Source of the DNA: Gluconobacter oxydans
GTDB taxonomy: Bacteria > Pseudomonadota > Alphaproteobacteria > Acetobacterales > Acetobacteraceae
Direction: 5' to 3'
Length of the DNA stretch: 63,391 bases
NCBI RefSeq assembly: GCF_006539685.1
Contig: NZ_BJNM01000016.1
Span: 1-63,391, forward strand
In this document: positions 12,401-31,976 of the stretch, piece by piece
Layout: each line of letters begins with the position of its first letter
How positions within the stretch are numbered: the first letter of the stretch is position 1
Translations under genes and position numbers: made by a program
The notes under the pieces: generated by a model
The model's input: the letters and a program-made list of their open reading frames with translations, nothing else
What the model was told of the DNA's origin: nothing
Databases searched by the model: none

Positions 12401-12408
12401 CGCTGACT

Positions 12409-12488: not shown

Positions 12489-12524
12489 GCAAGACCAGGA
12501 CATAACGTGAGACAAGAGGCATCG

Positions 12525-13811: not shown

Positions 13812-13828
13812 GGAAGGGTTCGTTTTCA

Positions 13829-15887: not shown

Positions 15888-16676
15888 TCAGATTTCCACG
15901 TCAACGGCGGCTGACAGGGCCTTTGCAATGCCGGGCGCGGCGGCAAGAATGGTTGCCCCACCCGTCAGGCCGCCTGTCTGAAGGAAACGCGACACCGCGG
16001 CCCCGGCTTCCGAAAGGATGACCAGTGCGGCTGCCACATCCCAGAGCTGGATGACGATTTCCAGATATCCGTCGGAGCGCCCGCAGGCCACATCGGCCAA
16101 GGCCAGCGCGCCCGATCCGCCGGAGCGCGGCATTGCGCCGAGCGCCATGATGGCGGCGATCTTCTCGTTGAAGGTTTCGGTCGTCACGCGCGCGGACCAG
16201 CCCATTTCGATCATGGCTTCCTGCGTGTTCGTAATGGGGGATGCCTTGATCGGCTTGCCGTTCAGGAACGCGCCCTTGCCCTTCTGGGCCGTGAAGACTT
16301 CGCCAAGCGCCGGAGCATCGATCACGCCGGCAACAGGTTTGTCTCCGTCCAGCAGGCCGAGCGAGACGCACCAGCGGTCACGGCCGCGTGCATAATTGGA
16401 CGTCCCGTCGATCGGGTCCACGACCCAGCGGAAGCCGCCCTGACGCGTCGCACCATTTTCTTCGCCCTGAAAACCATCCTCGGGGAAAAGCTCCTGGATG
16501 CGGCGGCTGACAAAGGCTTCGACGGCGCCATCCGTCTCGGTCAGGTAGTCCTGCCGGCCCTTGAGTGTTCCGGTCGGGCCACCCGGAGCAGGGCGCAGGG
16601 AGAGAGCAAGCCGGGCTGCGTCCCGCACAACGGAACGGGCGGCTTCGAGGCGGACGGCAATCGGATCGAAGGTCAT
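15888..16676 (-). CDS. Inositol monophosphatase family phosphatase
   Basis: A 262-residue magnesium-dependent phosphatase. Metal ligands are seen in GEENG (residues 71-75) and DPIDGTSNYARG (87-98; Asp87, Asp90), and the second aspartate motif is in IQLWDVAAALVILSEAG. Family members hydrolyse inositol monophosphate, histidinol phosphate or nucleotide 3'(2'),5'-bisphosphates. The motifs do not decide which, so I give no symbol. It lies nine bases downstream of the MmcB-like gene and is probably cotranscribed with it. Confidence 0.85.
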   Translation of the reverse strand: MTFDPIAVRLEAARSVVRDAARLALSLRPAPGGPTGTLKGRQDYLTETDGAVEAFVSRRIQELFPEDGFQGEENGATRQGGFRWVVDPIDGTSNYARGRDRWCVSLGLLDGDKPVAGVIDAPALGEVFTAQKGKGAFLNGKPIKASPITNTQEAMIEMGWSARVTTETFNEKIAAIMALGAMPRSGGSGALALADVACGRSDGYLEIVIQLWDVAAALVILSEAGAAVSRFLQTGGLTGGATILAAAPGIAKALSAAVDVEI

Positions 16677-17307: not shown

Positions 17308-18198
17308 ATGCCATTTTTGCGAACGGATCACTGGCGATGCGCCATCGTTCACGCGCCTCTGGCTGAGGTGGTCGAAGCGGCCAGTCTGAACGGCTTTCCC
17401 ATCACGACTCTGCCCGATATCGGGGATCATTGTTTTCTGGCCGATCCGTTCGGATTCTGGCGCGACGGAAAGCTGTATGTCTTTGCCGAGGCCTTCGATT
17501 ACCGCAACCCCACGGGAACGATCGAGGTCCTGATCTATGACGGAACGGGCCGTCTGCTGTCGCGTGAAACCGTTCTGCAGGAGTCTTGGCATCTGTCCTA
17601 CCCGTTCGTGTTCGCGCATGAGGGCGAGGTCTATATGCTGCCCGAGGCCAGTGCTTCGGGCCGTCTTTCGCTCTATCGGGCAAAATCGTTTCCGCGTGAG
17701 TGGGAGCGGGTCGAGGCATTCGATTTCCCCGAAGCCGCGATCGATGCAACGCCATTTCAGTATGCCGGTCGCTGGTGGATGTTCTGGACGCCCGCAGGGA
17801 GCAAGGACGAACGGCAGAGCCTTCTGAACATTTCCGTGGCCGACACCTTGATGGGGCCATGGAAAAACCTTGGGCTTTTCCTGAACGACCGGGCAGGGGC
17901 CCGTCCCGGGGGCACGCCGGTTCTTGTGGATGGAAAGATCTTCCTGCCTACCCAGGACTGCCGCGGAACCTATGGCCGCGGGATCCGGCTGCTGGAAATC
18001 GAAGGGCTGGAACGGGGGCTGCCGAAAGTCACACCGGGACTGTCCATTTCCATTCCGGCGTCTTTGCGGAAGCGTTATCCGGACGGGATGCACACCCTGT
18101 CCGCAGCCGGGCAGGTGACGCTGATTGACGTCAAGAAAATCGGGATTGGCCCCAGGCGGGATCTGCTCAATCTGAAGCGCCGGATTTTCGGCGCCTGA
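17308..18198 (+). CDS. GINT1-N-like / five-bladed propeller domain protein (sphingolipid cluster)
   Basis: A 296-residue protein without signal peptide. The repeated patterns CFLADPFGFWRDGKLYVF, SYPFVFAHEGEVYMLPE, IDATPFQYAGRWWMFWT and LVDGKIFLPTQDC are blades of a GH43-like five-bladed propeller. The same arrangement occurs in the N-terminal domain of plant glucosamine inositolphosphorylceramide transferase 1 and in bacterial sugar-modifying proteins. Here it stands alone, with no transferase domain fused. Its position beside a sphingolipid gene set suggests a role in head-group glycosylation, but this is inference. It converges with the minus-strand operon ending at 18220. Confidence 0.65.
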   Translation: MPFLRTDHWRCAIVHAPLAEVVEAASLNGFPITTLPDIGDHCFLADPFGFWRDGKLYVFAEAFDYRNPTGTIEVLIYDGTGRLLSRETVLQESWHLSYPFVFAHEGEVYMLPEASASGRLSLYRAKSFPREWERVEAFDFPEAAIDATPFQYAGRWWMFWTPAGSKDERQSLLNISVADTLMGPWKNLGLFLNDRAGARPGGTPVLVDGKIFLPTQDCRGTYGRGIRLLEIEGLERGLPKVTPGLSISIPASLRKRYPDGMHTLSAAGQVTLIDVKKIGIGPRRDLLNLKRRIFGA

Positions 18199-18205
18199 GA
18201 CGTGC

Positions 18206-18236
18206 GTATCCCCGGGCGCTCAGAAGCCCGGGATAC
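18206..18236. terminator. Hairpin between convergent genes
   Basis: Arms GTATCCCCGGGC and GCCCGGGATAC pair with a single bulged C around an 8-base loop. The hairpin contains the stop codon of the glycosyltransferase gene (18220-18222, minus strand). No T tract is present, so the terminator call is tentative. Confidence 0.5.
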
Positions 18237-19290
18237 GATCCAGCACGGCATTGCCATGCCTGACGAACGCTTCAGGCCCGAAGCGTTCCAGCACCCGTTT
18301 GCGGGACCGGGCGCCCATGGCCGCGAGATCGGCCGGTCTGCCGATCAGGTCCGCCAGAGCTGCCGCAAGGGCAGGGGCATTGTCGAACGGCACGATGCGT
18401 CCCGTCCCACCGTCGAGAATGCTCGACGCCAGTTCGCCCGCAGGGGTGGAAACGACCGGAAGGCCACAGGACATGGCTTCATGCCCCGCGACACACATGC
18501 CCTCCCAATGCGACGACTGGACGTAAAGATGCAGGGTCTTCAGGAAATCAAACGGCTTTGACTCGTAGCCCAGCAGGTCGATCGGCAGGTTGCCGGCTGT
18601 GATGCGATCCTGAAGTGCCGCGTGTTCGGGACCATCGCCTGCGATCTGAAGACGGAATGGCGGCAGGTCCGGATGGTCTTTCAGAAGAGCCACGGCCTCG
18701 CACAGGATGTCATACGCCTTGACCGGGTTCAGGCGTCCCAATGTCCCGACGCGCATAACTTCGCCTTCTTTCCACGGCGTGGCCACAGGAGCGTCCGGAT
18801 CCGCCCGGAAAATGGGCCAGGCAACGAAATTGTCGGTGAGGCCCAGTTCCTTCGCGGCAAAAGTGATGACGGACTGGGAGTCGGCGACCCAGAGCGTGGT
18901 GTAGGGGCGGCACAGCCTCAGCAGGAAGGCATTGACCTTCTTCAGCCGTCCACAATGCTGCCAGTGAACCGTCGGGGTCTTGTGACGCAGGGCAACCAGC
19001 TGCCCCAGAAGTGTGGCGCGGCTCAGCGACGTCCAGATCAGGTCCGGCTGAAACGCCTCCATCTCGTCCCGCAGCCAGCGATAGGCCGCGATATGGTCCC
19101 GCGTCGTGCCTTCCCGGACGCGCACGGGGATGCCGGCGGCTTCGATCAGCGGGATGGCGAGGCCGTCCTTACGTGCCAGGGCGAAGACGGTCACATCCCC
19201 GTCGCGGGCCTTCAGAACGGATACGATGTCCGGAATGGGAAGCTGTGCGCCCCCACATTCGAGGGAATTGATGATGTAGGCGATTTTCAT
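18220..19290 (-). CDS. GT-B glycosyltransferase, family 4 type
   Basis: A 356-residue cytoplasmic or membrane-associated glycosyltransferase. It starts with the typical MKIAYIINSLECGGAQ loop. The C-terminal nucleotide-sugar domain has VGTLGRLNPVKAYDIL, LQIAGDGPEHAAL, and the EGMCVAGHEAMSCGLPVV donor-binding segment (EX7E pattern). It would transfer a sugar to a lipid or glycan acceptor. It is the last gene of a six-gene minus-strand operon, its ATG overlapping the preceding stop by four bases (ATGA at 19287-19290), so I use this start rather than a longer upstream frame. Acceptor unknown; a sphingolipid head group is likely from context. Confidence 0.85.
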   Translation of the reverse strand: MKIAYIINSLECGGAQLPIPDIVSVLKARDGDVTVFALARKDGLAIPLIEAAGIPVRVREGTTRDHIAAYRWLRDEMEAFQPDLIWTSLSRATLLGQLVALRHKTPTVHWQHCGRLKKVNAFLLRLCRPYTTLWVADSQSVITFAAKELGLTDNFVAWPIFRADPDAPVATPWKEGEVMRVGTLGRLNPVKAYDILCEAVALLKDHPDLPPFRLQIAGDGPEHAALQDRITAGNLPIDLLGYESKPFDFLKTLHLYVQSSHWEGMCVAGHEAMSCGLPVVSTPAGELASSILDGGTGRIVPFDNAPALAAALADLIGRPADLAAMGARSRKRVLERFGPEAFVRHGNAVLDRIPGF

Positions 19291-20042
19291 GGTGTCGTCT
19301 GGGCCTGGATTTTTTCCGCCAGCGTCAGGTCCGAGGGCTTGTCCACGTCCACGGCTGCACGCCCGTCCGAGAGCGTCACCAGACGCACATTTGCACCCGT
19401 CAGCGTCCGGATGCGGCGATACAGGGCCGTAGAGTCGAGTGTACGGGTCACGGCCCGCAGCAGGGTGCCGATCCCAAGCGTCAGGGCCATCCGGAGCGGT
19501 CGTTTGCGGTTCTGCTGAAGGCGCTTCCACAGTTCGATGACATTCCGACCCTTCGGCGTATTGATCAGGAACAGGTTGCAGCCGGAAAAGCTCATGTCAG
19601 AGAGGTGGATATAGGTCCGTTTCGTGCCGGGCACGTCGCGCTCAACCGTCGCACGCAATGCCATGCCGGCCGCAAGATCGCAGCCCTGTGCCTTGGCGAG
19701 GAACTCCTGAATCCATTCCGGACGCAGAAGCGCATGATCGGCTGTCGTCACCAGACAGGGCGTGCCGATCCGGACAATGGCTTCAGCCACGCTCTCGCTT
19801 GGAGAAGGGGCGGAACGCAGGATCGTGGCGTCGCCTGCGAGATCCCTGATGCAGTCCGGGTTTTCGATGCTGATCGTGACGGGGCCAAGGCCGGGCGTGC
19901 GGGCAATCGTATCGAGCACGCGGGCCAGCATGGGCTGACCGCCGACGGGAAGGAGAGCCTTGTGGGAAACCTGACCGAGTTTCGCAAGCACATCGTTCTC
20001 GCCGTCCCGGGATCCGGCGAGAACCAGAACCGGAAGCGTCAT
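19287..20042 (-). CDS. MobA-like nucleotidyltransferase
   Basis: A 251-residue protein of the NTP-transferase 3 type. The N-terminal nucleotide-binding segment is VLAGSRDG followed by SHKALLPVGGQPML. The TTADHALLRPEW strand carries the metal-binding Asp, and AAVDVDKPSDL is the typical C-terminal motif. Family members activate sugars, polyols or alcohol phosphates as CMP or other nucleotide derivatives. It overlaps both neighbours by four bases, so it is translationally coupled in the sphingolipid operon. It may supply an activated head-group donor to the adjacent glycosyltransferase. Confidence 0.75.
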   Translation of the reverse strand: MTLPVLVLAGSRDGENDVLAKLGQVSHKALLPVGGQPMLARVLDTIARTPGLGPVTISIENPDCIRDLAGDATILRSAPSPSESVAEAIVRIGTPCLVTTADHALLRPEWIQEFLAKAQGCDLAAGMALRATVERDVPGTKRTYIHLSDMSFSGCNLFLINTPKGRNVIELWKRLQQNRKRPLRMALTLGIGTLLRAVTRTLDSTALYRRIRTLTGANVRLVTLSDGRAAVDVDKPSDLTLAEKIQAQTTP

Positions 20043-20854
20043 GCCGCGCGGTTACGGTCTGCTGCGGCGCGGGCGGATGCCGGACGTGCGCCATCGGGAC
20101 GGTCACGCGGGGGGGAACCCGTCAGGTCCATGACCCACGGATAACGATGGGCTTCCTCAATGTCGTAACCAAGGTTGAAGACATGCTTGCTGCGGGGCCG
20201 GTCGCGGGCCTCGCGGTAGAAACTGCGGAACAGACGGTCCGGCACGTAATTCGTGATGCCGTAATTGCCGTCTTCATCGTGGAAATGGTGCAGGACGTGA
20301 AGCTGCTTGATGTCCGCCACCCATTTCCAGCGCGGCTTGTAGGCCAGATGCTGGATGCAGTGGAAGAACTCGTAGATGCAGGTCATGACCAGCGCGGTCG
20401 AAAGCGCACAGAACGCACCGCTCCATCCTGCGATCAGCCCGCCGATCGGCATTGTGATGATCGCCATGGTCGGCACCGTGTTCAGCGGGGAGCCAAACAG
20501 CACGTCCAGCAGATGCGGGTCCTGATGATGATCGAAATGGATGCGCTTCCACAGGGAAGCGGTCCAGTGGTTGCGGTACAGCCACCGCCCGTGAAGGATA
20601 AAGCGGTGGATCGCATACCAGGCCAGCGGATAGACCACGATCACGACGGGAACGGGAATGAGCGTCGCCCAGAGCGCGGTCGAGAAATGCAGGGCGGCCC
20701 AGGCGGACACTGCGATCAGCGCGAAATAGAGCAGGATCGTCGGATAGGTCAGATAGGCGAACCACAGCTGCGGGAGGTTCATCTTTCCCAGATCGAAGCT
20801 GCGACCCGTCCTGATGGCGGACATGTTGCGCCAGGGCGCCTTGAAGTTGCTCAT
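20039..20854 (-). CDS. Fatty acid hydroxylase superfamily protein (FA2H-like, candidate ceramide 2-hydroxylase)
   Basis: A 271-residue membrane diiron enzyme. Hydrophobic segments lie near residues 36-56, 60-82 and 128-160. Histidine boxes are HRFILH (83-88), HFDHHQDPH (106-114), a HxxxH at 165-169 and HVLHHFH (186-192), the set used by sterol desaturase/FA2H/carotene hydroxylase proteins. FA2H hydroxylates the alpha carbon of N-acyl chains of ceramide. Ceramides with a 2'-hydroxy acyl chain have been described in acetic acid bacteria, which fits this gene's place beside LptFG-like and SPT genes. Four-base overlaps on both sides. Substrate is inferred. Confidence 0.75.
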   Translation of the reverse strand: MSNFKAPWRNMSAIRTGRSFDLGKMNLPQLWFAYLTYPTILLYFALIAVSAWAALHFSTALWATLIPVPVVIVVYPLAWYAIHRFILHGRWLYRNHWTASLWKRIHFDHHQDPHLLDVLFGSPLNTVPTMAIITMPIGGLIAGWSGAFCALSTALVMTCIYEFFHCIQHLAYKPRWKWVADIKQLHVLHHFHDEDGNYGITNYVPDRLFRSFYREARDRPRSKHVFNLGYDIEEAHRYPWVMDLTGSPPRDRPDGARPASARAAADRNRAA

Positions 20855-21960
20855 CGTTCCTCCATCCGCAAAAGCCAGGTCAGCCCGAGAAGGGTACCCA
20901 GGAGCGGTCCGACGCTGACGGCCAGCGGAGCTGGCAGCGTCCCCGCGTTTCCAAGTGCGGAAATCATTCCCTGCAGGATGACGAAACCCATTCCAGCGGC
21001 CAGAACATACACCGGCAGCGGATTTCGAAGTCCTGCACGGGGAGGGATATAGATCACCGGGAGCGTCAATAGAAGCATTACTGCAATTTCGACAGGTAAA
21101 ATCATCCCGCTGAAGAGGGCCATACGATATGTGGCCCGGGGTAGACTTGCGGGTGCGCCCTTGTGAAGAATGGCGCTGACCTGCGCCGGCGTGACGGTCG
21201 CTCCGTTCTGCGAGAGCGTCATGATAACCGAGGGTGTGGCCGGGATAACGAAGGTGCTGTCGCCCTTTGTAACATTCACGTACGACTTGTCATCGGACAG
21301 GGAAAGATCCTGCGCCCCATCGGGATGCCACTGCCCGTCACGGTATGTCAGGACGTTCGTGTGTTCGGTGCCGGTCAGCAGACCCGTATTGTCCCGGTGA
21401 TAGATCGTCACGTCCCGCAGGAACGTGCCGCCCTGGGCGATCTGTCCGATCCGGACCAGCGTGGGACCCGCGCGAAACCACAGGATATTGTCCTCGGGCT
21501 GCCCGTCCTGCCCCGCGAGCGGATCCGTGCGGTTCCACCACGTTGTGAGGGCGTTCTCGCAGGCTGGAACCAACCAGTACTGGGCGCAGGTTCCCCCGAT
21601 CCCCGCGATCAGCACCGCGGGCAGGAGAAGGCGGTACAGCGCGGGCGTTGAAAGCCCGGCCGCCCGCAGGGCCGAAATTTCGCTCGACAGGGTCATCTGC
21701 GTGAGCAGGAACAGCGCGCCCACCATGAAGGCAAGCGGCAGGATGTCGATGCTCAGGGCAGGCAGGTGCAGGAAGGCGAAGGTCAGGATGCCGCGAAAGC
21801 CGAGATGCCGGTTCAGGATCGGCGTCGTCTTTTCAAGAAGCGCCAGAATTTCCAGCAGCGAGACGAGGACGGCCCCGCACAGCAAAAAGCGTCCCAGAAG
21901 GGCACGGTTGAGCGCCTTGATGAGGACATGGCGCGGCATGGCAGGTGTGGAGTCGCTCAT
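20851..21960 (-). CDS. LptG-like permease (YjgQ family) in sphingolipid operon
   Basis: A 369-residue inner-membrane protein with the YjgP/YjgQ architecture: three N-terminal transmembrane helices (about 17-40, 55-80, 90-112), a periplasmic beta-jellyroll domain, and three C-terminal helices from about residue 270. The coupling-helix segment TLSSEISALRAAGLS is the clearest family mark. LptFG form the permease of the lipopolysaccharide exporter with the LptB ATPase. This copy is coupled by four-base overlaps to the hydroxylase and to the LptF-like gene, with no lptD, lptA, lptC or pepA nearby. A sphingolipid cargo is an inference. The start MSDS at 21960 is chosen by the GTGA/ATGA overlap pattern. 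Confidence 0.85.
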   Translation of the reverse strand: MSDSTPAMPRHVLIKALNRALLGRFLLCGAVLVSLLEILALLEKTTPILNRHLGFRGILTFAFLHLPALSIDILPLAFMVGALFLLTQMTLSSEISALRAAGLSTPALYRLLLPAVLIAGIGGTCAQYWLVPACENALTTWWNRTDPLAGQDGQPEDNILWFRAGPTLVRIGQIAQGGTFLRDVTIYHRDNTGLLTGTEHTNVLTYRDGQWHPDGAQDLSLSDDKSYVNVTKGDSTFVIPATPSVIMTLSQNGATVTPAQVSAILHKGAPASLPRATYRMALFSGMILPVEIAVMLLLTLPVIYIPPRAGLRNPLPVYVLAAGMGFVILQGMISALGNAGTLPAPLAVSVGPLLGTLLGLTWLLRMEER

Positions 21961-23111
21961 GCCGGCGCCCTTGTAAGCTTGCGCCGTCGCCACGACCCAC
22001 GGGAACGGCGTAGCAGGGCTGCCAGACAGCCGACGCAGAACAGCAGTTCCGGGACCCAGATCGCCAGCCAGATGGGAAGACGTCCGGTCGAGGCGAGGCT
22101 GTGGCCGAACATGAGCGTCTGGTCGAAGCCGATCAGGATCACGGCCACCGCAATCAGCCCCCAGACGGATTTTCTTCGCCGGGCGCTGATGGCCAGCGCG
22201 ACAGCAAGCGGCGGAATGAACGGAATGGCGATTGCGCGCGCCATACGGAAATCCATTTCGGCCCGGAGTGTGCGGTATTCGATGCCGGGCAGGCCATAAC
22301 GCAGGTCATGCGCCAGTTCGAACAGGGTCAGTTCACGCTCGTCGGCCCCGCGGGAGCGGAAGGAGGTTTCCTTGTTCGGCCGGTCGATAACGCGGACGAC
22401 ATGTTCGAAATGCGTCACAGTCGGTTTGTGGGGTTTGGTGGCCTGGAACGGATCATCCACGATTTCCCCGTTCCACAGGTCGAGGCGGGTGCTGCGGGTC
22501 TTTTCCGAAATGGTCAGCGCGCCGGTTCGGGCCGTGATGATGTGAGCCACGCCATTGGCATTCACTTCCCGGATGAAGACCCGTCTGAGGCGGGTGCCGG
22601 CATGGCTGACACTGTCGGCCGTCATGACGGCCTTGCTGGACGTGGAGGCGAACATTCCCGCCTGAAGATGTGGGGCCCAGCCGGTATGCTCGGCGAAATA
22701 GAAGCCCGCGCGATAGTCATAGCGGGCCACGGGCTGGATATAGCCGTACAGGAACACGCTGGTCGCCCCGAGAAGCAGCCCTACGATCATGAAAGGGCGA
22801 CTGATTCGCATCAGCGAGACCCGACCGGCCTGAAGCGCATCGATCTCGTTGTTGTCGCTCATGCCCCGGATGGTGAGGAACACCGCGATACACAGCGCCG
22901 CGGGCAGGGCGATACCGAAATAATGGGGCAGAAGGTCCGTGAGGAGCGCAATACAGGTCCCGAGCGAACTTCCCGCCGAAGCCAGATAGTCGAAGAGTGA
23001 CAGCAGGCGCTCCAGCAGCAGCGCGATCAGCATCGCCAGAAGCGCGATCGCAAAGGGCGGTGCCATCTGTGTCAGCAGATACCGGTCCAGAATATGGGCC
23101 CGCTGTTTCAC
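21957..23111 (-). CDS. LptF-like permease (YjgP family) in sphingolipid operon
   Basis: A ~384-residue six-helix inner-membrane protein, the partner of the adjacent LptG-like gene. Helices lie near residues 14-40, 53-80 and 97-118. A periplasmic jellyroll follows (with SSKAVMTADSVSHAG and ITARTGALTISE), then helices from about 290 to 370. The coupling segment MSDNNEIDALQAGRVSL matches LptF/G. GTG at 23111 gives the same four-base overlap with the upstream stop as the other operon junctions, so I prefer it to ATG 23138. The C-terminus is rich in Arg/Lys. It could be the cell's only LptF or a second, specialised one; the window cannot tell. Confidence 0.85.
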   Translation of the reverse strand: MKQRAHILDRYLLTQMAPPFAIALLAMLIALLLERLLSLFDYLASAGSSLGTCIALLTDLLPHYFGIALPAALCIAVFLTIRGMSDNNEIDALQAGRVSLMRISRPFMIVGLLLGATSVFLYGYIQPVARYDYRAGFYFAEHTGWAPHLQAGMFASTSSKAVMTADSVSHAGTRLRRVFIREVNANGVAHIITARTGALTISEKTRSTRLDLWNGEIVDDPFQATKPHKPTVTHFEHVVRVIDRPNKETSFRSRGADERELTLFELAHDLRYGLPGIEYRTLRAEMDFRMARAIAIPFIPPLAVALAISARRRKSVWGLIAVAVILIGFDQTLMFGHSLASTGRLPIWLAIWVPELLFCVGCLAALLRRSRGSWRRRKLTRAPA

Positions 23112-24049
23112 GCCTCTGTCCTTCCCGAGCGGTTCCATGACGCCCGTTCACTGACGGAGCCATCGAGCCGGTGACGTGCCAGAGTGATTGTCCAGCCCTT
23201 CCCATATGGGTGGATGCTCAGGCGATTCCAGCAGGCCTGACGGTGAGGGCGTTCATCCGTCAGCGAGGCGGACGCCACACCGAGCAGCGGAATGTCCGTG
23301 CCGGCAATATGGGTCAGCGTTGCGTCATGGGAGTGTCCGTGCAGCACGATTTCCGCTCCGGCCCGTCTGAAAACGGCGGCCACCTCGCGGTGATCGAGCA
23401 GGGACTTCCGCCAGGGCACGAGCCCGCGCCGGGGGGGATGATGGATCATCACGACCCGGCACAGTCCCTCACGACCGAGCTCTTGCAGCAGCGCCTCAAG
23501 TCGCTCACGCTGTCGGTGTCCGACGCGCCCGCAGGCCATGAACGGCGCAGTCGGAATGCCGGAATTGACGCCGACGATCGCAACCCCGTTCTGGATGCGG
23601 ACATACGGATACTGCCGGGCCGACCAGCGTTCCCACTGGTGCAGACCGGCCGAGTCCGGTTGGCGGACCATGCAGTCATGATTGCCGGGAATTACGAGTG
23701 CCTGAGCGGGCAGGGCATCGAGCCAGCGTGCGGCCGCAGCAAACTCGTCGGGCGTTCCGAAATTGGTCAGGTCCCCGCTGACGAGGATGGTGTCCACGTC
23801 CGAGCGCCCGATATCTTTCACCAGGGCAGCGCAGGTCTGTTCGAGATGGACGTACCGGCGGTGCTTCTTCCATGACAGAAGGCTCAGGGCGCGCTTGTTG
23901 AGCGCCTCACGCCAGTGGACCGGGGGCGGGGGCAGGTGCGGGTCCGAAATATGGGCCAGTGTGACAGTGGAGATGACAGCAGGCGCAGACGTGATGACAG
24001 GGGACGTTTGCCGCGACGAGATGGTATCTGCGGGCAGGTCAGGGGTCAT
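23108..24049 (-). CDS. Calcineurin-like metallophosphoesterase
   Basis: A 313-residue dimetal phosphoesterase with the whole ligand series: HISDPHL near residue 35, VSGDLTNFG near 92, IPGNHDCM near 120, MIHHPPR near 200 and LHGHSHD near 238. It resembles class III CpdA-like phosphodiesterases. There is no obvious transmembrane segment. It is the first gene of the minus-strand operon, so a role in removing a phosphate or splitting a phosphodiester in the lipid pathway is more likely than cAMP turnover. This is inferred from position. It faces the lipid kinase gene across a ~140-base divergent promoter gap. Confidence 0.8.
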   Translation of the reverse strand: MTPDLPADTISSRQTSPVITSAPAVISTVTLAHISDPHLPPPPVHWREALNKRALSLLSWKKHRRYVHLEQTCAALVKDIGRSDVDTILVSGDLTNFGTPDEFAAAARWLDALPAQALVIPGNHDCMVRQPDSAGLHQWERWSARQYPYVRIQNGVAIVGVNSGIPTAPFMACGRVGHRQRERLEALLQELGREGLCRVVMIHHPPRRGLVPWRKSLLDHREVAAVFRRAGAEIVLHGHSHDATLTHIAGTDIPLLGVASASLTDERPHRQACWNRLSIHPYGKGWTITLARHRLDGSVSERASWNRSGRTEA

Positions 24050-24188
24050 GATCAGAAAAGGGCCTTGTCAGTATCCACGTCAGAAGCCGGCATCCGGGCG
24101 CGCCGGGATGCCATGTTCTGGCAGTTCCATCATAGCCGTGCTAGACCCGCCCGCATAGCCGAACGCCATACGAAGATTGCCTCACCTA

Positions 24189-25136
24189 GTGCGCATTGCC
24201 TTGATCCATAATGCCCGTAGCCGGAAAAACCGCCGGAACGGTTCCAGTTTTGCTGTCGAGGCCCAGGCCCTTCTGGGGAAGGATTTCGTGCCTTCCGATA
24301 CTCGGGAGGGGACAACCGAACATGTCCGCCAGCTTTATGAGCGTGGGATCGACACCATTCTCATCGATGGCGGCGACGGGACGGTCAGCACGGCCCTGAC
24401 TGCCATCGCACGCGCTTATCCTGCTGACAGGCTTCCGGATATCGTGGTCCTGGCGTCCGGCAACACGAACCTCATTGCCGGGGACGTCGGCTTCGGTCTG
24501 CGCGGGATGGAGGCAATCCAGCGTCTGCGGCAGGGCGGCCTGCGCTCCAGTGTCCGGACGCCGATCCGCCTGTCCTGGCCCGGAACCGACCGGATGCCCG
24601 TGCTTGGCCTGTTCGGTGGCTGCGCGGGATATGCACGCGCCGTCCGGATTGCCCATTCGCCGACCGTTCTGCGTTTCGCGCCCCATGATCTTGCGGTCGG
24701 TATCACGCTGCTCTCGACATTCGTCAGCCTCATGTTCCGCAAAAGCCGCGAGGAATGGCTCCGTGGAGACCCGCTGCGGATCGAGACCGGCGGCCATGTC
24801 TATGACGGGCAGAGCTTCATGTTCCTGACGACAGGGCTTTCGCGCCTGTCCCGCGGGATCTGGCCCTTCTGGGATGCAGAGCCCAATGTCGAAGGACTGC
24901 GCTATCTGGACGTGAGCGCCTGGCCGGACAGTCTGCTCCGGGCGACGGCGGCCCTTCTGTGTGGACGCGCACCCCGCTGGCTGCGTCGTCACCCGGATTA
25001 TGTTAGCGGACGGACGGACGACATGACGCTGGTGACGGAAAGCGATTTCGTGCTCGATGGCGAGGTCTTCAGCGCAGCACCGGGCGGCGTGCTGCGTCTG
25101 GAGCGTGCGTCCCGCTTCCGGTTCCTGCATGCCTGA
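24189..25136 (+). CDS. DAGK-family lipid kinase (candidate ceramide kinase)
   Basis: A 315-residue kinase of the diacylglycerol/sphingosine kinase catalytic family. The nucleotide-binding loop GGDGT is at residues 61-65 and ASGNTN at 89-94, and the C-terminal beta-sandwich ends with ESDFVLDGEVF. Members phosphorylate diacylglycerol, sphingosine or ceramide. A Caulobacter member of this family (CpgB) has been reported as a bacterial ceramide kinase, and the sphingolipid neighbourhood here favours the same activity. The start is uncertain: GTG 24189 begins just before the first strand, and an in-frame TTG at 24177 is also possible. It overlaps the next gene by eight bases. Confidence 0.75.
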   Translation: MRIALIHNARSRKNRRNGSSFAVEAQALLGKDFVPSDTREGTTEHVRQLYERGIDTILIDGGDGTVSTALTAIARAYPADRLPDIVVLASGNTNLIAGDVGFGLRGMEAIQRLRQGGLRSSVRTPIRLSWPGTDRMPVLGLFGGCAGYARAVRIAHSPTVLRFAPHDLAVGITLLSTFVSLMFRKSREEWLRGDPLRIETGGHVYDGQSFMFLTTGLSRLSRGIWPFWDAEPNVEGLRYLDVSAWPDSLLRATAALLCGRAPRWLRRHPDYVSGRTDDMTLVTESDFVLDGEVFSAAPGGVLRLERASRFRFLHA

Positions 25137-26067
25137 CGCGCTCGAACAGCGCCTGATCGGCGAACTGACGACGCCGGTCGATCCGGGCGTCGTCGCCTTT
25201 GCCGATGCGCTGGCCCGTGCCTGTCCCGTCCTGCCGCTGGGCGTAGTGTTCTATGGCTCGCTTCTGCGTAAAGCTGATCCGGACGGTATTCTCGACTTCT
25301 ATATCATTACCGAAAATGCCGCGGGTTTTGGGGGTGGACTGGTGGCCCGGACCGGTAATCTCGTCCTGCCGCCCAATGTCCGTTATTCCGAATTCCGTCA
25401 TGACGGCCGGGTTCTGAGAGCAAAGATCGCAGTACTGTCACAGGCGCAGTTCGAAGCCCGAACGAGGCTCGGCGCGCTCGACACAACGATCTGGGCGCGG
25501 TTCTGTCAGCCCGTGCGGCTGGTCTGGGTGCGGGATCCGCAAAGCGCGGATGCCATCCTGTTGCTGATCGCAGGCTGTGTGACGACGGCGGCGTGCTGGA
25601 CGGCTCTTCTGGGCGATGTGTCCATGACGGCGCTGGAGTTCTGGCAGACCCTTTTCGCCCATACCTATGCGTCCGAACTGCGGGTCGAGAAGAAGGGACG
25701 GGGCAACAGCATTCTGGAAGGGCAGGAGGCGCGTTACGCTGCCCTGCTGACGCTGGGGTGGGCACGGGGACATCTTCAGTTCTCGGCTCATGGCGACAGG
25801 CTTGAACCCGTCATCCACGAGGAACTTCGCCGGAAAGCGACCCGTCGCTGGGCGCTGATCCAGACATCCGGACGTCCACGCAATGTGGCCAGGCTGCTGA
25901 AGGCCGCCTTCACGTTTGAAAACGGCGCGTCCTATCTGGCTTGGAAGATCCAGCGGCATACGGGTTTTGACATGCAGTTGTCGCCCTTCGAAAGCCGCCA
26001 TCCGCTTGTGATGCTGCCCCGGCTTCTGTGGCGCGCGCGGGGACTTCTGGGGCGTTCGAAGGCCTGA
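25129..26067 (+). CDS. Nucleotidyltransferase-fold protein, weakly Tam41-like
   Basis: A 312-residue protein. The segment GVVFYGSLLRKADPDG followed by ILDFYIITE looks like the GS...D-x-D metal site of a nucleotidyltransferase fold. The C-terminal RNVARLLKAAFTFENGASY helix resembles the end of Tam41-type CDP-diacylglycerol synthases. The similarity is weak and by eye. If right, it could activate a lipid phosphate such as ceramide 1-phosphate with CTP. It overlaps the lipid kinase stop by eight bases, so the two products probably act in sequence. It ends at a perfect terminator. Confidence 0.5.
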   Translation: MPDALEQRLIGELTTPVDPGVVAFADALARACPVLPLGVVFYGSLLRKADPDGILDFYIITENAAGFGGGLVARTGNLVLPPNVRYSEFRHDGRVLRAKIAVLSQAQFEARTRLGALDTTIWARFCQPVRLVWVRDPQSADAILLLIAGCVTTAACWTALLGDVSMTALEFWQTLFAHTYASELRVEKKGRGNSILEGQEARYAALLTLGWARGHLQFSAHGDRLEPVIHEELRRKATRRWALIQTSGRPRNVARLLKAAFTFENGASYLAWKIQRHTGFDMQLSPFESRHPLVMLPRLLWRARGLLGRSKA

Positions 26068-26070
26068 ATT

Positions 26071-26103
26071 AAAAAAGGGGGATCCGGTGGATCCCCCTTT
26101 TTT
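26071..26103. terminator. Perfect bidirectional terminator
   Basis: A perfect 15-base-pair stem: the left arm (26071-26085) is A6-G5-ATCC, the loop is GGT, and the right arm (26089-26103) is GGAT-C5-T6. It gives a T tract on both strands. It separates the plus-strand kinase/nucleotidyltransferase pair from the minus-strand serine palmitoyltransferase gene. Confidence 0.95.
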
Positions 26104-26108
26104 ATGGA

Positions 26109-27302
26109 TTACAGCCCGAAATGTCTGGCGACTTCGCCGAAGACGGCCACGGCGCGGTCAATTTCCTCGGGGGAATGGGCCGCCATGACCGAGCAGCGCA
26201 GCAGCGGCCGGTTGTCAGGCGTGGCCGGTGGGAGCGAGAGGTTCACATAAACCCCGTTTTCCAGCAGCGCGTTCCAGAAACCGACAGCCTGATCCACGGT
26301 CTCCAGCGTTACGGCGACCACCGGGGAGACGTGCTCGCCCGTTTTCAGGCCAACTTTCTGGAGCCCCGCATGCAGACGGGCTGCGTTTTCCTGAAGCTTC
26401 GTCCGCAGTTCCGGGCGGCCCTGCATGTCTTCAAGCGCTGCCATGGTGGCTGCGATGATTTCGGGGGGCAGGGACGCCGTGAACATATAGGGACGCGAGC
26501 ACAGACGCATCAGGTCCACGCCGTCATGGTTCGTGACGCAGTAGCCGCCCACGGTTCCGAGGGACTTGGAGAAGGTGCCGACCACGAAGTCGATCCCGTC
26601 CTCGCAGTCCTGCATTTCCGCAACGCCGCGGCCATGCGCACCCAGGACACCGAACGAATGGGCTTCGTCAGCCATCAGATACGCACCGTGGCGCGTCTTG
26701 ATGTCCACGAACTTGTCCAGCGGGGCGACATTGCCCGTCATGGAGTAGATGCCCTCGGCGATGATGAGCTTGGCGCCCGTGTGGTCCTTCAGGCGTGCCA
26801 GACGCTTTTCCAGATCGACCGGATCGTTGTGGCGGAAGCGGATGACCTGCGCGCCGGACAGCTTGGCGCCGTCATAGATGCTGGCATGGCTGTCCGCATC
26901 AAGCAGCAGGACGTCGTCCTTGTTCACCAGAGCCGAGATCGTGCCCAGATTGGCCTGATATCCGGTCGAGAACACCATGCAGTGCTTGCGGCGGAAGAAC
27001 TCGGCGAGCTTTGCCTCCAGCTTGCGGTGCAAACCGAAGGTGCCATTCGCAATGCGGGAACCCGTCGTGCCGACGCCCATCGTCTCGGCCGTTTCCACGG
27101 CTGCTTCGATGGCTTTCTTCGACTGGCTGAGACCAAGATAGTTGTTGGTCCCGAAGAGCAGCGTCTCGCGCCCTTCGATGATCCCGACGCTTGCGGAGAT
27201 CGGACGTTCGATCACGACCTCGAACGGGTTGCGCGGGGAGGCGGCCGTGAGGCCTTCATAGGCTTCGCGCAGCCCCTGGTGCTTGGCGAAAATATCCGTC
27301 AC
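26109..27302 (-). CDS. spt: Serine palmitoyltransferase
   Basis: A 397-residue pyridoxal-phosphate enzyme of the alpha-oxoamine synthase family. It condenses serine with a fatty acyl thioester to 3-oxosphinganine, the first step of sphingolipid synthesis. PLP-site residues are His139 in DADSHAS, Asp212 and His215 in ADEAHSFG, and Lys246 in GTFSKSLG. The spacing between them matches the soluble Sphingomonas enzyme. The C-terminal PPATPDNRPLLRCS motif with AAHS favours SPT over KBL, BioF or HemA. It starts at GTG 27302, overlapping the acyl carrier protein stop by four bases (GTGA). No transmembrane segment. Confidence 0.9.
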   Translation of the reverse strand: MTDIFAKHQGLREAYEGLTAASPRNPFEVVIERPISASVGIIEGRETLLFGTNNYLGLSQSKKAIEAAVETAETMGVGTTGSRIANGTFGLHRKLEAKLAEFFRRKHCMVFSTGYQANLGTISALVNKDDVLLLDADSHASIYDGAKLSGAQVIRFRHNDPVDLEKRLARLKDHTGAKLIIAEGIYSMTGNVAPLDKFVDIKTRHGAYLMADEAHSFGVLGAHGRGVAEMQDCEDGIDFVVGTFSKSLGTVGGYCVTNHDGVDLMRLCSRPYMFTASLPPEIIAATMAALEDMQGRPELRTKLQENAARLHAGLQKVGLKTGEHVSPVVAVTLETVDQAVGFWNALLENGVYVNLSLPPATPDNRPLLRCSVMAAHSPEEIDRAVAVFGEVARHFGL

Positions 27303-27553
27303 GCGTGGGCGACCTTGAGCGTGTGCAGGCAGCCGGCAAGGTCGTTGATGGTGCGGATATCGGCCAGCTTGTCGAGCGGGACGGAGACGTCGAGCTCGTC
27401 TTCGATTTCCATGACGAAGTTCATGACGGCCAGGCTGTCAAAGGCCAGGTCTTCGACAATCTTGCTGTTGCCATCGATGTCCCGGGGAACTTTCGGATTG
27501 GCAAGCAGTTTCTCAATGATCATTCCGGAAATACCGGCGACGCTGTCAGTCAT
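27299..27553 (-). CDS. Sphingolipid-dedicated acyl carrier protein
   Basis: An 84-residue carrier protein with the phosphopantetheine site Ser40 in EDLAFDSLAVMNF. It differs from AcpP (GADSLD) in the bases around the serine and in its helix II. The stop overlaps the spt start, so it is translationally coupled to SPT and likely donates or presents the acyl chain to it, as proposed for Caulobacter. The start ATG 27553 is chosen by length and by the N-terminal helix; a longer frame runs to 27622. Confidence 0.9.
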   Translation of the reverse strand: MTDSVAGISGMIIEKLLANPKVPRDIDGNSKIVEDLAFDSLAVMNFVMEIEDELDVSVPLDKLADIRTINDLAGCLHTLKVAHA

Positions 27554-27667
27554 GGACTTCAACTCTCGGTGTCTGTGCAATCTTGGGCAAGCCTTATGCT
27601 CCAAACCGGCCCCCTTCGCCACCCCTTTGCCTCTTCAGGCAGCAGGGCGGCGGAAGCCGGTCCGGGA

Positions 27668-29479
27668 TCAGGCGACCGAAGACGTGGTTTCGGGCTGCTG
27701 CTCGAACTGACCGGAGAGCAGCATGGTCTTGGCCTTCGCACGGGTCAGCTTGCCCGAGGAGGTCTGGGGAAGCGTGCGGGGCGGCACAAGGATGACGTCA
27801 ACATCCACGCCGTGCTGGCGGCGGAACAGACTCGTGACCTCGTCGCGGAGCTGGTTGCGGCTCTCATCCTCGGTCGCGCGGCACTGGACGAGTGCGACGA
27901 TCTTCTCGCCTTCGTCGCCATCCACGGAAAAGACGGCCACGTCACGCGAACGCAGGTTCGGGATCTCGCTTTCAGCGGACCATTCCAGATCCTGCGGCCA
28001 GATATTGCGGCCGTTGATGATGATCAGGTCCTTGGCGCGGCCGGTGACGACGATCTGGCCATTGAGGCGATAGCCAAGATCACCCGTGTTCAGCCAGCCA
28101 TCCGCATCGAGGACGGCCTCGGTCTCGTCGGGACGGCGGAAATAGCCGCACATGAGACTCGGTCCACGGACATAGACGGTGCCGACCTGCCGGTCCGCCA
28201 GATCATGTCCTGCAGCGTCGCGGACTTCGATCTGATGATCGGGAAGGGCCTCGCCGCACAGGACAAAGGTCCGCAGCGGATGGGACGGGTCGTTGGACGG
28301 CTCGGCAATGCCGTCCTTCTCAAGGCGGCGCAGATCGATCGTGTCGGTCTGGATGCCGGTGTTGAGCGGGGCGAAGCTGATGGCAAGCGTCGCCTCGGCC
28401 ATGCCGTAGCTCGCGACGAAGGACGTGGCCCGGAAGCCGTTCGAGGCGAAACGCTCCGCAAAGCCTTCGAGGATATGATGGCGGATCATGTCACCGCCAA
28501 TGCCGGCAATGCGCCAGCACGACAGGTCCAGATCGGCCTGACCGCTGCGGCGGGCGCAGAGCTCGTACCCGAAGGAGGGGCTGTAGGCGATTGTGCCGCG
28601 GTTGCGGGAAATCAGATCCAGCCAGACATGCGGACGACGCGCGAATTCGCGGGTGGGCAGCAGATCGACGGAAAGCTGGCAGGTCAGGGGCGTCAGGAAG
28701 AAGCCGACCAGCCCCATGTCATGATAGAGCGGCAGCCAGGAGACGCAGCGGTCATCGCGCGGGTCTTCGGCCGGATAGACGTGAAGACCGTCGCGGGCGA
28801 TGGCGCGGGCATTGGCCATGCCGGCTGCCTGCGTGACCGAAACACCCATCGGAAAACGTGTGCTGCCCGAGGAAAACTGGAGATAGGACAGGGCTGTCGG
28901 GGAGATTTCCGGCAGTTCGACACGGGCTTCGGCGTGACGGTACAGATCGGCCGGCGAGCCGCCGAAGACCAGGTCGAGACCATCGACGATATCCGCCGTC
29001 CAGCTTCCAATCACATCGGGCACCACAACGGCGCGGGCCGCAGCGCTCTGGATCATGCCGCGCAGCGTCGTCACATAGCCCTCGCGTCCGCCGAAGGCGA
29101 CCGGCAGGGGGAGTGGCGCCGGGACCAGGCCTGCATACTGGCAGCCGAAGAAGATCCGGGCGAAGTCGCCATCGCTTTCCGCCACGATCGCAACGCGATC
29201 GCCCGGGACCAGACCAAGACCCAGCAGGCGGCAGGCCATGGAACGGGCCTGTTCGCGCAGCAGACGGTATGGCAATGCCTCGAGAAGCTGCCCCCGGCCG
29301 GAATAGATGTTGAATCCGCTCTCACCCTGGGCCGCGTAATCAAGGGCGGCCGCAAAGCTGGGGAAATCTCCGTAGCGTCTTTCCAGGCCGGAGCGGCTTG
29401 GCGTCGGAACGGGATTGGCGGTTGGGTTCTGGTTGGCCTCGGTCAAACCTGGACTAGCTCCGTTTGGATTACCTGACAT
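27668..29479 (-). CDS. Fatty acyl-AMP / acyl-ACP ligase
   Basis: A 603-residue adenylate-forming enzyme. The A3-like loop is SSGSTRFPMG (residues 203-212), where the usual lysine of TSGSTGxPKG is replaced by Met. Other motifs are SYGMAEAT, GDLGYRLNGQIVVTGR, KDLIIINGRNIWPQDLE and the catalytic C-terminal lysine in LPQTSSGKLTRAK. The INGRNIWPQDLE wording is typical of fatty acyl-AMP ligases that pass the acyl group to a carrier protein. It probably loads the adjacent acyl carrier protein. It lies 114 bases upstream of that gene and touches its own upstream gene by a TGATG overlap. Confidence 0.85.
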   Translation of the reverse strand: MSGNPNGASPGLTEANQNPTANPVPTPSRSGLERRYGDFPSFAAALDYAAQGESGFNIYSGRGQLLEALPYRLLREQARSMACRLLGLGLVPGDRVAIVAESDGDFARIFFGCQYAGLVPAPLPLPVAFGGREGYVTTLRGMIQSAAARAVVVPDVIGSWTADIVDGLDLVFGGSPADLYRHAEARVELPEISPTALSYLQFSSGSTRFPMGVSVTQAAGMANARAIARDGLHVYPAEDPRDDRCVSWLPLYHDMGLVGFFLTPLTCQLSVDLLPTREFARRPHVWLDLISRNRGTIAYSPSFGYELCARRSGQADLDLSCWRIAGIGGDMIRHHILEGFAERFASNGFRATSFVASYGMAEATLAISFAPLNTGIQTDTIDLRRLEKDGIAEPSNDPSHPLRTFVLCGEALPDHQIEVRDAAGHDLADRQVGTVYVRGPSLMCGYFRRPDETEAVLDADGWLNTGDLGYRLNGQIVVTGRAKDLIIINGRNIWPQDLEWSAESEIPNLRSRDVAVFSVDGDEGEKIVALVQCRATEDESRNQLRDEVTSLFRRQHGVDVDVILVPPRTLPQTSSGKLTRAKAKTMLLSGQFEQQPETTSSVA

Positions 29480-30609
29480 CAGGCAGCCCTTTTCAGAAAA
29501 TCGACAATTGCATCCGCGGCAGCGGGAGCAGTGGGCTCATCGCCCAGTGTTTCGAATGTCTCTAATACATATTGGCGCTGCGCCTCAAGAAAACGAGGAT
29601 GCGTTTCGAAAGCATTCTCTATCTTGGAGCCCAGATCCGATACATTTTCCGTCACTGGCCCCAGCGTCCAGAACTGGTAGTCCGCATTTCCATGCCATTT
29701 GACATGGTGGGCGTTGAGAAAGAGACAAGGGCGCGGGCGGATCATGAACTCGGCGACCTGGCTGCTGACATCACCCAGATAGAGGTCTGCCCCCATCGTA
29801 TAGGTCATGTCGATGCTCCGGTGGCTGCCCGGGTCGATCAGCATGTGGGGCAGGTGCCCATACTGGCGCCTCAGGGCTTCCCCCTCTTCGCGGTGATTGT
29901 CGAAGAGACGGAAATGCGGTGCGAAAACAAGGTTGTAGCGATCCTGCGTGGCAAAGAACTGCAGGACCTGATGTCCCATTTCCGGCCAGGAGGACAGGCG
30001 GCGCAGGAAATGCGGATTATACAGGATCGTCGGCCGGTTGTTGTTGAAGAGTTTCGGCCGTTTCGCGTCCGTGCGCCGCACGAGATCAAACTTGGCGTAG
30101 GTGCCGCGATGATAGGCGCCGGGGCGGATGATACCCTTTTCCAGCATGCGCTGTTCCACCTTGCGTCCGGGAACCAGCAGGAAATCGAATTTTCCGAGAT
30201 GCCGGGCAAAACCGATCGCCCGGTCACCGGCGCCATGGCCCGTCCAGATCATTTTCGGACGCCGCACGCCCATGCGGCGGAGCTGCAGGGACGTCGCTTC
30301 CGGCACGATGATCGCATCGAAGGTCCGGAAATAATGCCGGGAGGCGAAAAGCCCGATCAGGCGGTCCACCACCCGAAGCCCGTGCAGTTCGATCCGGCGA
30401 CGGAGCTTGGGGGAGATCGGGAGCAGGTCGAACTGCACCCGGGCTTCCGGATAGAGCGTCGCCAGCGAGCGTGCCAGTTCGAGATGGCTCACGGTCAGGC
30501 ATGAGACATGGACTGCAACGTCCGGATGGCGCGCGGAGACTTCCAGCGCGATTGGCAGGACGTGCAGGGTCTGGTGACGCTGGCCGATAAGGGGGAAAGC
30601 CACCTTCAT
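29479..30609 (-). CDS. TagB/TagF-like (CDP-glycerol glycerophosphotransferase-type) transferase
   Basis: A 376-residue GT-B-fold protein starting MKVAFPLIGQRHQ. The second half, with TILYNPHFLRR, LVFAPHFRLF, DMTYTMGADLYLGDVSS and RPCLFLN, resembles CDP-glycerol:poly(glycerophosphate) glycerophosphotransferases. The key GDVSSQVAEF segment corresponds to the family's TDYSS motif. A transferase adding phosphoglycerol or a similar group to a lipid or oligosaccharide is likely. Its ATG overlaps the flippase stop by four bases and its stop overlaps the ligase start by one. Donor and acceptor unknown; Caulobacter's ceramide phosphoglycerate makes such a role plausible. Confidence 0.6.
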   Translation of the reverse strand: MKVAFPLIGQRHQTLHVLPIALEVSARHPDVAVHVSCLTVSHLELARSLATLYPEARVQFDLLPISPKLRRRIELHGLRVVDRLIGLFASRHYFRTFDAIIVPEATSLQLRRMGVRRPKMIWTGHGAGDRAIGFARHLGKFDFLLVPGRKVEQRMLEKGIIRPGAYHRGTYAKFDLVRRTDAKRPKLFNNNRPTILYNPHFLRRLSSWPEMGHQVLQFFATQDRYNLVFAPHFRLFDNHREEGEALRRQYGHLPHMLIDPGSHRSIDMTYTMGADLYLGDVSSQVAEFMIRPRPCLFLNAHHVKWHGNADYQFWTLGPVTENVSDLGSKIENAFETHPRFLEAQRQYVLETFETLGDEPTAPAAADAIVDFLKRAA

Positions 30610-31976
30610 GCCGCAAGCCCCTGCGGGCTGCGGACCGTGCGGATCACGAAGACAAGCTGGATCGTGATCAGAAGGGTGACGCCACATAATGTCGCTGGCC
30701 CGACGCCGCTCAGACCGTAATGGCGAACCATCATCACCAGGGCCGGAAGGAAGAAGGTACATTCCAGGATACGAGCTCCGATCGCGGCGCCGGAACGGTT
30801 CGTCGTGAACAGCAGCGGTTCCAGTGGCAGGCCCCAGACGGTGACCACTTCCGCGGCCAGCAGCCACAGCGTGACGGGAAGAGCCTCTGTCGCTCCCTTG
30901 TGGCCGATATAGAGCTGAAGGAGCGGGCGTCCGGCAAACAGCGTCAGCAGGAGCAGGGCCGTTCCGATTCCACCAGCCATCAGGGCGATCTGGCCCGTCA
31001 GGCGATACAGCCGGTTCATGGCCCTGTCGCGCCATAGCCGGGCCATTTCGGGATAGACCGTCGTCTGGATCAGGGTTGCGGGCTTGGCGATCCCGGCCGC
31101 GATCTGGCTTGCGATCCGGTAGTAGCCGGCGCTCGTCGGGCCGACGAAGGCGCCGACCACGAGGGTGCCGATATGGCCGAAGGCGAGGGCGAGCGTGGAA
31201 TTGAGGTTCGTGTTCAGCGCGAAACGCCAGATCCCGGGATAGGTGCGGAAAAACTGTCCGCTCAGGATCTCGGGCAGGATACCGCGCATTTCATGGAAGA
31301 GGCCGCGGATCAGGTCCCGGCGATACATCTCGCGGGCCGCCATGAAAAAGATCGTGCCCCAGGCTGCCACTTCCGCTGCGATCCAGACACTGGCAAGCGC
31401 CGTCACGGACGCCCAGCCCAGAGCCATCGAGGCCGTGCCGATCACGCGGACGATGGTGGCCACGGTGCCCTGTACGGCCAGCAGGTCGTACCGGTCGAAA
31501 ACCCGCAGCAGGCCCGTTGCGGTGGCGGATGCCATGAAAAGGATGGAGACGCAGTAGACCACGCCGATGACGTGGATCTCAGGCGGCCAGCCCAGAAGAT
31601 TCATGGCCAGAAGACTGATGAGGACGCCCCCGCCAAAACCCAGCAGACCCCCGACGCTGTCCAGCAGCAGACTGAAGGAGACGATTTTCTGGAAACCGCG
31701 ACGGTCACCCTGCGTTAGGGGGCGCAGGCCATAATGCAGAACGGTCTGCCAGGACTGGAAATCCACGATGTCGCCCATCGTCCGTGCGAAGGCATACATC
31801 ATCGCGACGAGCCCGAAGCTGTAGCTCCCCAGCAGATGGGTCGCCATCCAGATATGGATGAGGCTCAGCGGAGCATTGACTGCGCGCCCTCCCAGAAGGA
31901 CGCCCAGATTGCTCATGACGCGCTGGACACCGCCGGGTCTTGCAGCCTGAGAAGACGATGAGTCGTCTGACATCAA
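30606..31976 (-). CDS. Oligosaccharide/lipid flippase of the Wzx (MOP) superfamily
   Basis: A 456-residue polytopic membrane protein with about 12-14 predicted helices. Its N-terminal region (NLGVLLGGRAVNAPLSL) and the YRIASQIAAGIAKPATLIQT segment match polysaccharide flippases of the MOP exporter superfamily. It is the first gene of the operon flippase-transferase-ligase-acp-spt. It would flip a lipid-linked product across the inner membrane. Two ATG codons occur in a row at 31974-31976 and 31971-31973. The ~236-base gap upstream separates it from alr and must hold both promoters. Confidence 0.8.
   Translation of the reverse strand: MMSDDSSSSQAARPGGVQRVMSNLGVLLGGRAVNAPLSLIHIWMATHLLGSYSFGLVAMMYAFARTMGDIVDFQSWQTVLHYGLRPLTQGDRRGFQKIVSFSLLLDSVGGLLGFGGGVLISLLAMNLLGWPPEIHVIGVVYCVSILFMASATATGLLRVFDRYDLLAVQGTVATIVRVIGTASMALGWASVTALASVWIAAEVAAWGTIFFMAAREMYRRDLIRGLFHEMRGILPEILSGQFFRTYPGIWRFALNTNLNSTLALAFGHIGTLVVGAFVGPTSAGYYRIASQIAAGIAKPATLIQTTVYPEMARLWRDRAMNRLYRLTGQIALMAGGIGTALLLLTLFAGRPLLQLYIGHKGATEALPVTLWLLAAEVVTVWGLPLEPLLFTTNRSGAAIGARILECTFFLPALVMMVRHYGLSGVGPATLCGVTLLITIQLVFVIRTVRSPQGLAA

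Follow-up and report, generated by a model that had tools for sequence, protein, structure and literature searches.

We analyzed a 63,391-nt contig of Gluconobacter oxydans (NZ_BJNM01000016.1, hereafter the window), part of a 2.7-Mb genome in 107 contigs, which carries a candidate sphingolipid locus at positions 17308-31976. Domain and profile scans of the window proteins yielded 14 genes in this interval: gintL on the plus strand; gt4, ntp, fah, lptG2, lptF2 and pde on the minus strand; cerK and cpgC on the plus strand; and spt, acpR, aasR, tagFL and flip on the minus strand (Table 1). A first-pass annotation of the same DNA had counted thirteen, the number being higher here because two nucleotidyltransferase-type proteins, Ntp and CpgC, are encoded. 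The functions it had named were found where it had placed them, with serine palmitoyltransferase (SPT), carrier, ligase, hydroxylase, kinase, phosphoesterase, Lpt pair and flippase all matched by profiles.

Table 1. Genes of the locus, with positions in the window (E, E-value of the profile match)
Gene	Position	Strand	Description
gintL	17308..18198	+	Single-domain GINT1_N protein, 296 residues (E 2.7e-36); predicted all-beta propeller of glycosidase type (model)
gt4	18220..19290	-	Family-4-type glycosyltransferase (GT4); Glycos_transf_1, E 1.1e-25, from ATG 19290
ntp	19287..20042	-	MobA/CofC-like nucleotidyltransferase; NTP_transf_3, E 3.9e-12; positional counterpart of CC_1153; adjoins cerS in other families
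fah	20039..20854	-	Fatty acid hydroxylase superfamily; PF04116, E 7e-18
lptG2	20851..21993	-	Second LptG-type permease; PF03739 (LptF_LptG), E 5.1e-67
lptF2	21957..23138	-	Second LptF-type permease; PF03739 (LptF_LptG), E 3.6e-51
pde	23108..24049	-	Calcineurin-like phosphoesterase; PF00149, E 7.8e-16; positional counterpart of CC_1158
cerK	24177..25136	+	Lipid kinase; DAGK_cat, E 8.6e-11; by position and family, counterpart of the ceramide kinase CpgB/CC_1160
cpgC	25129..26067	+	Nucleotidyltransferase with predicted Tam41 fold (model); positional counterpart of CpgC/CC_1161; ATG 25129
spt	26109..27302	-	Serine palmitoyltransferase; NF047599, 615 bits (cut-off 500)
acpR	27299..27622	-	Dedicated acyl carrier protein; PF00550, E 1.3e-10
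aasR	27668..29479	-	Acyl-ACP/acyl-AMP ligase; NF006624, 917 bits (cut-off 600), E 4e-276
tagFL	29479..30609	-	TagF-like (CDP-glycerol glycerophosphotransferase-like; CDP, cytidine diphosphate); PF04464 below cut-off; ATG 30609
flip	30606..31973	-	Wzx/MOP-type flippase; PF01943 (Polysacc_synt), E 3.6e-10; positional counterpart of CC_1166; ATG 31973

Same-strand neighbours overlap by a few bases (four for gt4 and ntp) or are closely spaced, and for this reason the minus-strand genes are read as two putative operons and cerK and cpgC as a pair, with gintL standing alone. The genome holds another lptF/lptG pair on contig C2, making the pair in the locus the second one. A loss of LptF2 and LptG2 in the related genomes G029 and G116 was considered and rejected, as two pairs were found in each, the second located elsewhere. 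A PHROGs comparison of two proteins returned no match.

In Caulobacter crescentus, CC_1168 to CC_1152 provide for ceramide synthesis, for the CPG and CPG2 head groups and for a presumed transport system comprising a flippase and an additional LptC, LptF and LptG (PMC11324152). Common to that locus and the one studied here are aasR, acpR, spt, a ceramide-kinase-type kinase, CpgC, the CC_1153- and CC_1158-type proteins, the second LptF/LptG pair and the flippase, counterparts being assigned by family and position rather than by comparison of Caulobacter sequences. On the other hand, the Gluconobacter genome has no clear CpgA, CpgD or CerR and carries CerS outside the locus, while the locus itself adds the TagF-like, GT4 and GINT1_N genes and has a PF04116 hydroxylase inside. 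The first-pass annotation had regarded the whole combination as undescribed. That view cannot be kept, since the kinase, CpgC, both CC_1153- and CC_1158-type proteins, LptF2/G2 and the flippase have been reported beside spt in Caulobacter (PMC11324152): the locus is a variant of a published pathway, and only the added genes keep undescribed status. Based on gene content, synteny, the failed searches for CpgA, CpgD and a clear CerR, the CerS match and two model folds, we propose, with a probability of roughly 0.78, that this block is the form which the Caulobacter-type phosphosphingolipid locus takes in acetic-acid bacteria; this figure does not extend to decoration by the TagF-like, GT4 and GINT1_N proteins.

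Within the genus, spt, acpR and aasR of G. oxydans have been described as GOX2056-GOX2058 (PMC9386255). These are the same three genes and probably the same locus, an assignment made without comparing the GOX sequences. The excerpts of that paper cover these genes and two distant ones, GOX1849 and GOX2417, without describing genes for decoration or export, and the searchable literature gave no account of the locus in acetic-acid bacteria beyond these five genes. There is a practical use in knowing the lipids made by food acetic-acid bacteria: participants in a skin-hydration study reportedly received food containing acetic-acid bacteria that bear ceramides (PMC11722302).

The conserved gene neighbourhood that the first-pass annotation had expected in Acetobacteraceae was borne out by two surveys. 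Among 120 genomes of the family, spt was present in 36 (E 1e-100), and 24 of the 34 spt regions fetched contained both cerK and cpgC; of the rest, two lie on short contigs, and in G054 and G066, cerK and cpgC are found elsewhere in the genome, away from the spt region. A second survey used named loci, the best 80 of at least 536 relatives chosen by cpgC (64 Acetobacteraceae and 16 others), many of which end at contig ends, so that gene counts are lowered. The 64 Acetobacteraceae loci contained cerK in every case, spt, acpR and aasR in 59, fah in 63, a TagF-like gene in 40, gt4 in 35, gintL in 32 and a flippase in 16. The 11 nearest named loci by cpgC, among the matches listed, were all from Gluconobacter (96% in G. 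aidae). Judged from the counts in the two surveys, the grouping is not due to chance. At the level of the class, cpgC was matched in 34 of 289 genomes; 20 cpgC regions were fetched, and 18 of these lay outside the family, with spt in 15 and fah in 14 (one an edge piece). The recurring order among the class regions, with variations, is ntp, cerS, fah, lptG2, lptF2, pde, CpgA, cerK, cpgC, spt, acpR, cerR, aasR. No fah gene was seen in the 16 named loci from other families. Given the 14 of 18 class regions that carry it, fah is not peculiar to Acetobacteraceae.

The kinase and nucleotidyltransferase pair constitutes the predicted head-group entry point. CpgB has been assayed as a ceramide kinase (PMC10331486), and cerK, which adjoins cpgC, is assigned to the ceramide-kinase type by family and position. 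The structural model of CpgC has the Tam41 fold. The fold is thus common to CpgC and the Tam41 CDP-diacylglycerol synthase in the model, while a match at sequence level is absent: Pfam matches of 48 CpgC members included no Tam41 model up to E 1, and because a 29-sequence CpgC profile gave only one weak match among PDB sequences, to another nucleotidyltransferase (E 0.021), the relation is not established by sequence alone. The substrate is presumably ceramide-1-phosphate. Papers of 2025 and 2026 call the way in which CpgC makes the ceramide head group unidentified; the Tam41 fold offers a directly testable answer, CDP-ceramide.

To search for further Caulobacter-type enzymes, queries were picked by position and domain, namely CpgA (CDP-OH_P_transf), CerS (GNAT) and CerR (Epimerase) from genome G388 and a CpgD-type protein (NTP_transferase) from G304. 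They were run against 16 or 18 genomes, of which the window's own and 13 others are those of core acetic-acid bacteria. For CpgA, the CDP-alcohol transferase, this single query gave no match in the window's genome at E 0.001; full matches were confined to G388 itself and G102 (51%), with weak partial ones in G118 and G029 (two of the 13 other core genomes). CpgD, the phosphoglycerate cytidylyltransferase, was likewise without a match there at E 1e-6. Strong matches were seen only in G304 itself, G293, G388 and G102 (52%), and weak ones in G070, G061, G025 and G042 (E 2e-8 to 4e-7; four of the 13 other core genomes). CpgA, CpgD, CerR and CerS were each absent from all 64 Acetobacteraceae named loci, including the 25 loci of at least 20.5 kb, and were found in 15, 8, 8 and 14, respectively, of the 16 other named loci. 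Because no clear CpgA or CpgD is present, the established route to the CPG2 head group probably does not operate here. A family that retains CerK and CpgC, seemingly without CpgA and CpgD, would provide a natural experiment in which the first step of head-group formation can be told apart from the step to CPG2.

Two candidates for the missing enzymes were rejected. The TagF-like protein, like CpgA a CDP-alcohol-type transferase, was at first equated with it; in other families, however, it is a CDP-OH_P_transf protein that is encoded between pde and cerK, at the position of CC_1159. Ntp was considered as CpgD; 8 of the 16 other named loci, however, have both, and in seven they are neighbours among the labelled genes. 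Among solved structures, Ntp has one match, a protein of unknown function (2dpw, E 4e-20).

In Caulobacter, AasR, AcpR and SPT make the long-chain base (PMC9386255). CerS was matched in all 16 genomes searched, in the window's genome on another contig (C3:38238-39335; 39%, E 2.2e-69), in line with the distant GOX2417 of PMC9386255. CerR had no match in this genome at E 1e-10 or better; the query matched strongly in G388 itself and G102, and weakly in seven of the 13 other core genomes, where the protein may be another epimerase. PMC9386255, however, names GOX1849 as a reductase homologue in Gluconobacter. The hydroxylase had been annotated as FA2H-like, which holds at the level of the PF04116 superfamily but not further, no sequence match to Fah being found in the PDB up to E 1.

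The added genes behave differently from one another. Taken alone, TagFL is a weak match, scoring against PF04464 with E 0.0066 and 15.9 bits, under the cut-off of 22.1; 13 of 22 TagF-like homologues match this family at E up to 0.1 (best 3e-6). A phmmer search with TagFL returned two matches, to unrelated proteins (E 0.1 and 0.37). Compared with the TagF/TagB teichoic acid enzymes, the similarity is weak and a TagD-type supply was not detected, as TIGR01518 exceeded its cut-off in none of 13 genomes, the window's included, the single match in each falling below. TagF-like proteins match in 21 of the 120 family genomes. The best match exceeds 50% identity in 15 genomes, and in 14 of these, G079 being the exception, the gene lies next to aasR and a few kb from spt; the 16 further matches (15 at no more than 43%, one short piece at 49%) include two near spt (G001 and G060). 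TagFL is 38% identical to a paralogue in its own genome and 51-54% identical to proteins from Rhizobiaceae and Nevskiaceae loci that contain cpgC, suggesting that this transferase is tied to sphingolipid loci across classes. Clustering in the TagF-like tree is biased, as the loci were mostly picked for nearness to cpgC or spt; the count in family genomes is less so.

The GINT1-like assignment was retained only in part. A GINT1_N domain is present in GintL, as in plant GINT1, but it is this N-terminal domain alone: no transferase domain was found beside it in the 296 residues up to E 0.1, and the plant catalytic domain, which we take to be GT64, has no counterpart. In the model, residues 22-282 match glycosidase and phosphorylase propellers, and one propeller, presumably of five blades as in the matched families, appears to span nearly the whole chain. 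The top phosphorylase rows are, we assume, GH130 enzymes, a name that one row uses. Moreover, gintL, like gt4, occurs in only about half of the Acetobacteraceae loci and, in contrast to the TagF-like gene, is often off-locus near glycan-type genes: in 8 of 13 off-locus gintL regions, a gene resembling gt4, flip or tagFL lies within two genes. In G001 (contig C13) and G056 (contig C41), a GINT1_N gene stands between two TagF-like genes, and in G071 gintL is beside one; G056 is without spt at E 1e-100, which hints at a separate polymer pathway. GINT1_N occurs in 26 of 36 spt genomes and in 11 of the 84 others (Fisher p 4e-10, kinship ignored, assuming the same 120 genomes in both searches). We give this co-occurrence little weight because of kinship, that assumption and the frames of at least 430 residues, perhaps other, longer proteins, in at least one match of 10 of the 11 genomes without spt.

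The slot that separates ntp from mmcB, or from the next gene outward, is variable: Gluconobacter has gintL and gt4 there, Bombella and Saccharibacter only gintL and Asaia only gt4, and in Komagataeibacter and Novacetimonas the slot is empty (47-114 bases). In Gluconacetobacter azotocaptans (L216, 1658-3954), a flippase-like and two TagF-like genes replace gintL and gt4.

From these genes we infer the reactions, their order and the export as follows. AasR would load a fatty acid onto AcpR, and SPT would join the AcpR-bound acyl group to serine. CerS, encoded elsewhere in the genome, would N-acylate the SPT product, with the ketone reduced by an enzyme other than a clear CerR orthologue. Hydroxylation of the ceramide is probably the task of the PF04116 protein. 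CerK would phosphorylate the ceramide to ceramide-1-phosphate, which CpgC would turn into CDP-ceramide, and a phosphodiester head group would be made from this by an enzyme that was not found. The flippase would turn the lipid over, and LptF2/LptG2 would draw it in the direction of the outer membrane. Further phospho- or sugar groups may be attached by the TagF-like, GT4 and GINT1_N proteins in loci that encode them, the step of which we are least sure. Of the earlier interpretation, one conserved sphingolipid locus with kinase, decoration and Lpt-like export is supported, while the GINT1 reading is weak.

Several points weigh against this proposal. CpgC of the window has no Pfam match, and sharing the Tam41 fold proves no function. 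No transferase using CDP-ceramide was seen in the locus. Ntp, the counterpart of CC_1153, which Caulobacter needs for CPG2 but not for CPG (PMC11324152), persists where CpgA and CpgD were not found. The naming of GOX1849 speaks against the lack of a clear CerR, G042 has a weak full-length CpgD match (29%, E 2.3e-8), and the Bombella and Saccharibacter loci are without a TagF-like gene. Finally, five spt regions with at least 7 kb on each side (G100, G068, G086, G021 and G049) and that of G063, at a contig end, show no cerK or cpgC match, on which account some spt loci of the family are, by gene content, of another kind.

A less likely alternative has two separate pathways side by side. The genes from ntp to aasR, together with the flippase, would form a phosphosphingolipid core, and gintL, gt4 and perhaps tagFL would belong to a glycan or teichoic-acid-like module acting on another lipid or polymer. 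This agrees with our proposal on the core and differs over three genes. The off-locus gintL regions with their glycan-type neighbours point this way, as do the gintL genes between two TagF-like genes in G001 and G056 (without spt) and beside one in G071, and the slot next to ntp, which has no gene in Komagataeibacter and Novacetimonas but a flippase and two TagF-like genes in G. azotocaptans. The position of 14 of the 15 close TagF-like homologues near spt and aasR, the TagF-like genes in cpgC loci of Rhizobiaceae and Nevskiaceae, and the four-base overlap of gt4 and ntp argue against it. A more elaborate scheme, which we regard as speculative and rather unlikely, would yield a teichoic-acid-like sphingolipid: CDP-(hydroxy)ceramide formed by the Tam41-fold enzyme, an undescribed head group extended by the TagF-like protein and a glycosyltransferase, trimming or modification by the glycosidase-type propeller, and delivery by a dedicated Lpt-type pair to the outer leaflet, the decoration varying by genus.

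That the published CPG and CPG2 are made with diverged enzymes, TagFL replacing CpgA and Ntp replacing CpgD, seems improbable. TagF moves phosphoglycerol from CDP-glycerol, an analogy drawn for CPG2 in PMC12275187, and NTP_transf_3 is matched by Ntp as well as by the CpgD-type query; however, CpgD and Ntp coexist in the eight loci mentioned above and so are not stand-ins there, TagF-like and CpgA genes coexist in L234, L240, L241, G388 and G293, and Bombella and Saccharibacter loci keep ntp with no TagF-like gene found. Least probable by far is a plant-style GINT1 glycosyltransferase that puts sugar on inositol-phosphoceramide, with inositol supplied by the product of an Inositol_P family gene at 15888-16676. 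The strong GINT1_N match and the nearness of this gene would fit, but the single-domain GintL with its propeller matches would not, and the phosphatase scores best in NCBIfam as a HisN-type histidinol-phosphatase (146 bits, below the cut-off of 275).

Apart from the proposed phosphosphingolipid locus, the Inositol_P family gene lies near the locus also in 16 of the 34 fetched relatives. Upstream, at 12161-14878, lie fabF, mltG and a gene for an acyl carrier protein; mltG is near the locus in 16 of the 34 fetched relative regions, suggesting that the sphingolipid locus is often beside a fatty acid synthesis region. The 884-residue product of 33323-35977 is perhaps an outer membrane receptor; it matches the TonB plug domain only weakly (E 0.0014, below cut-off).

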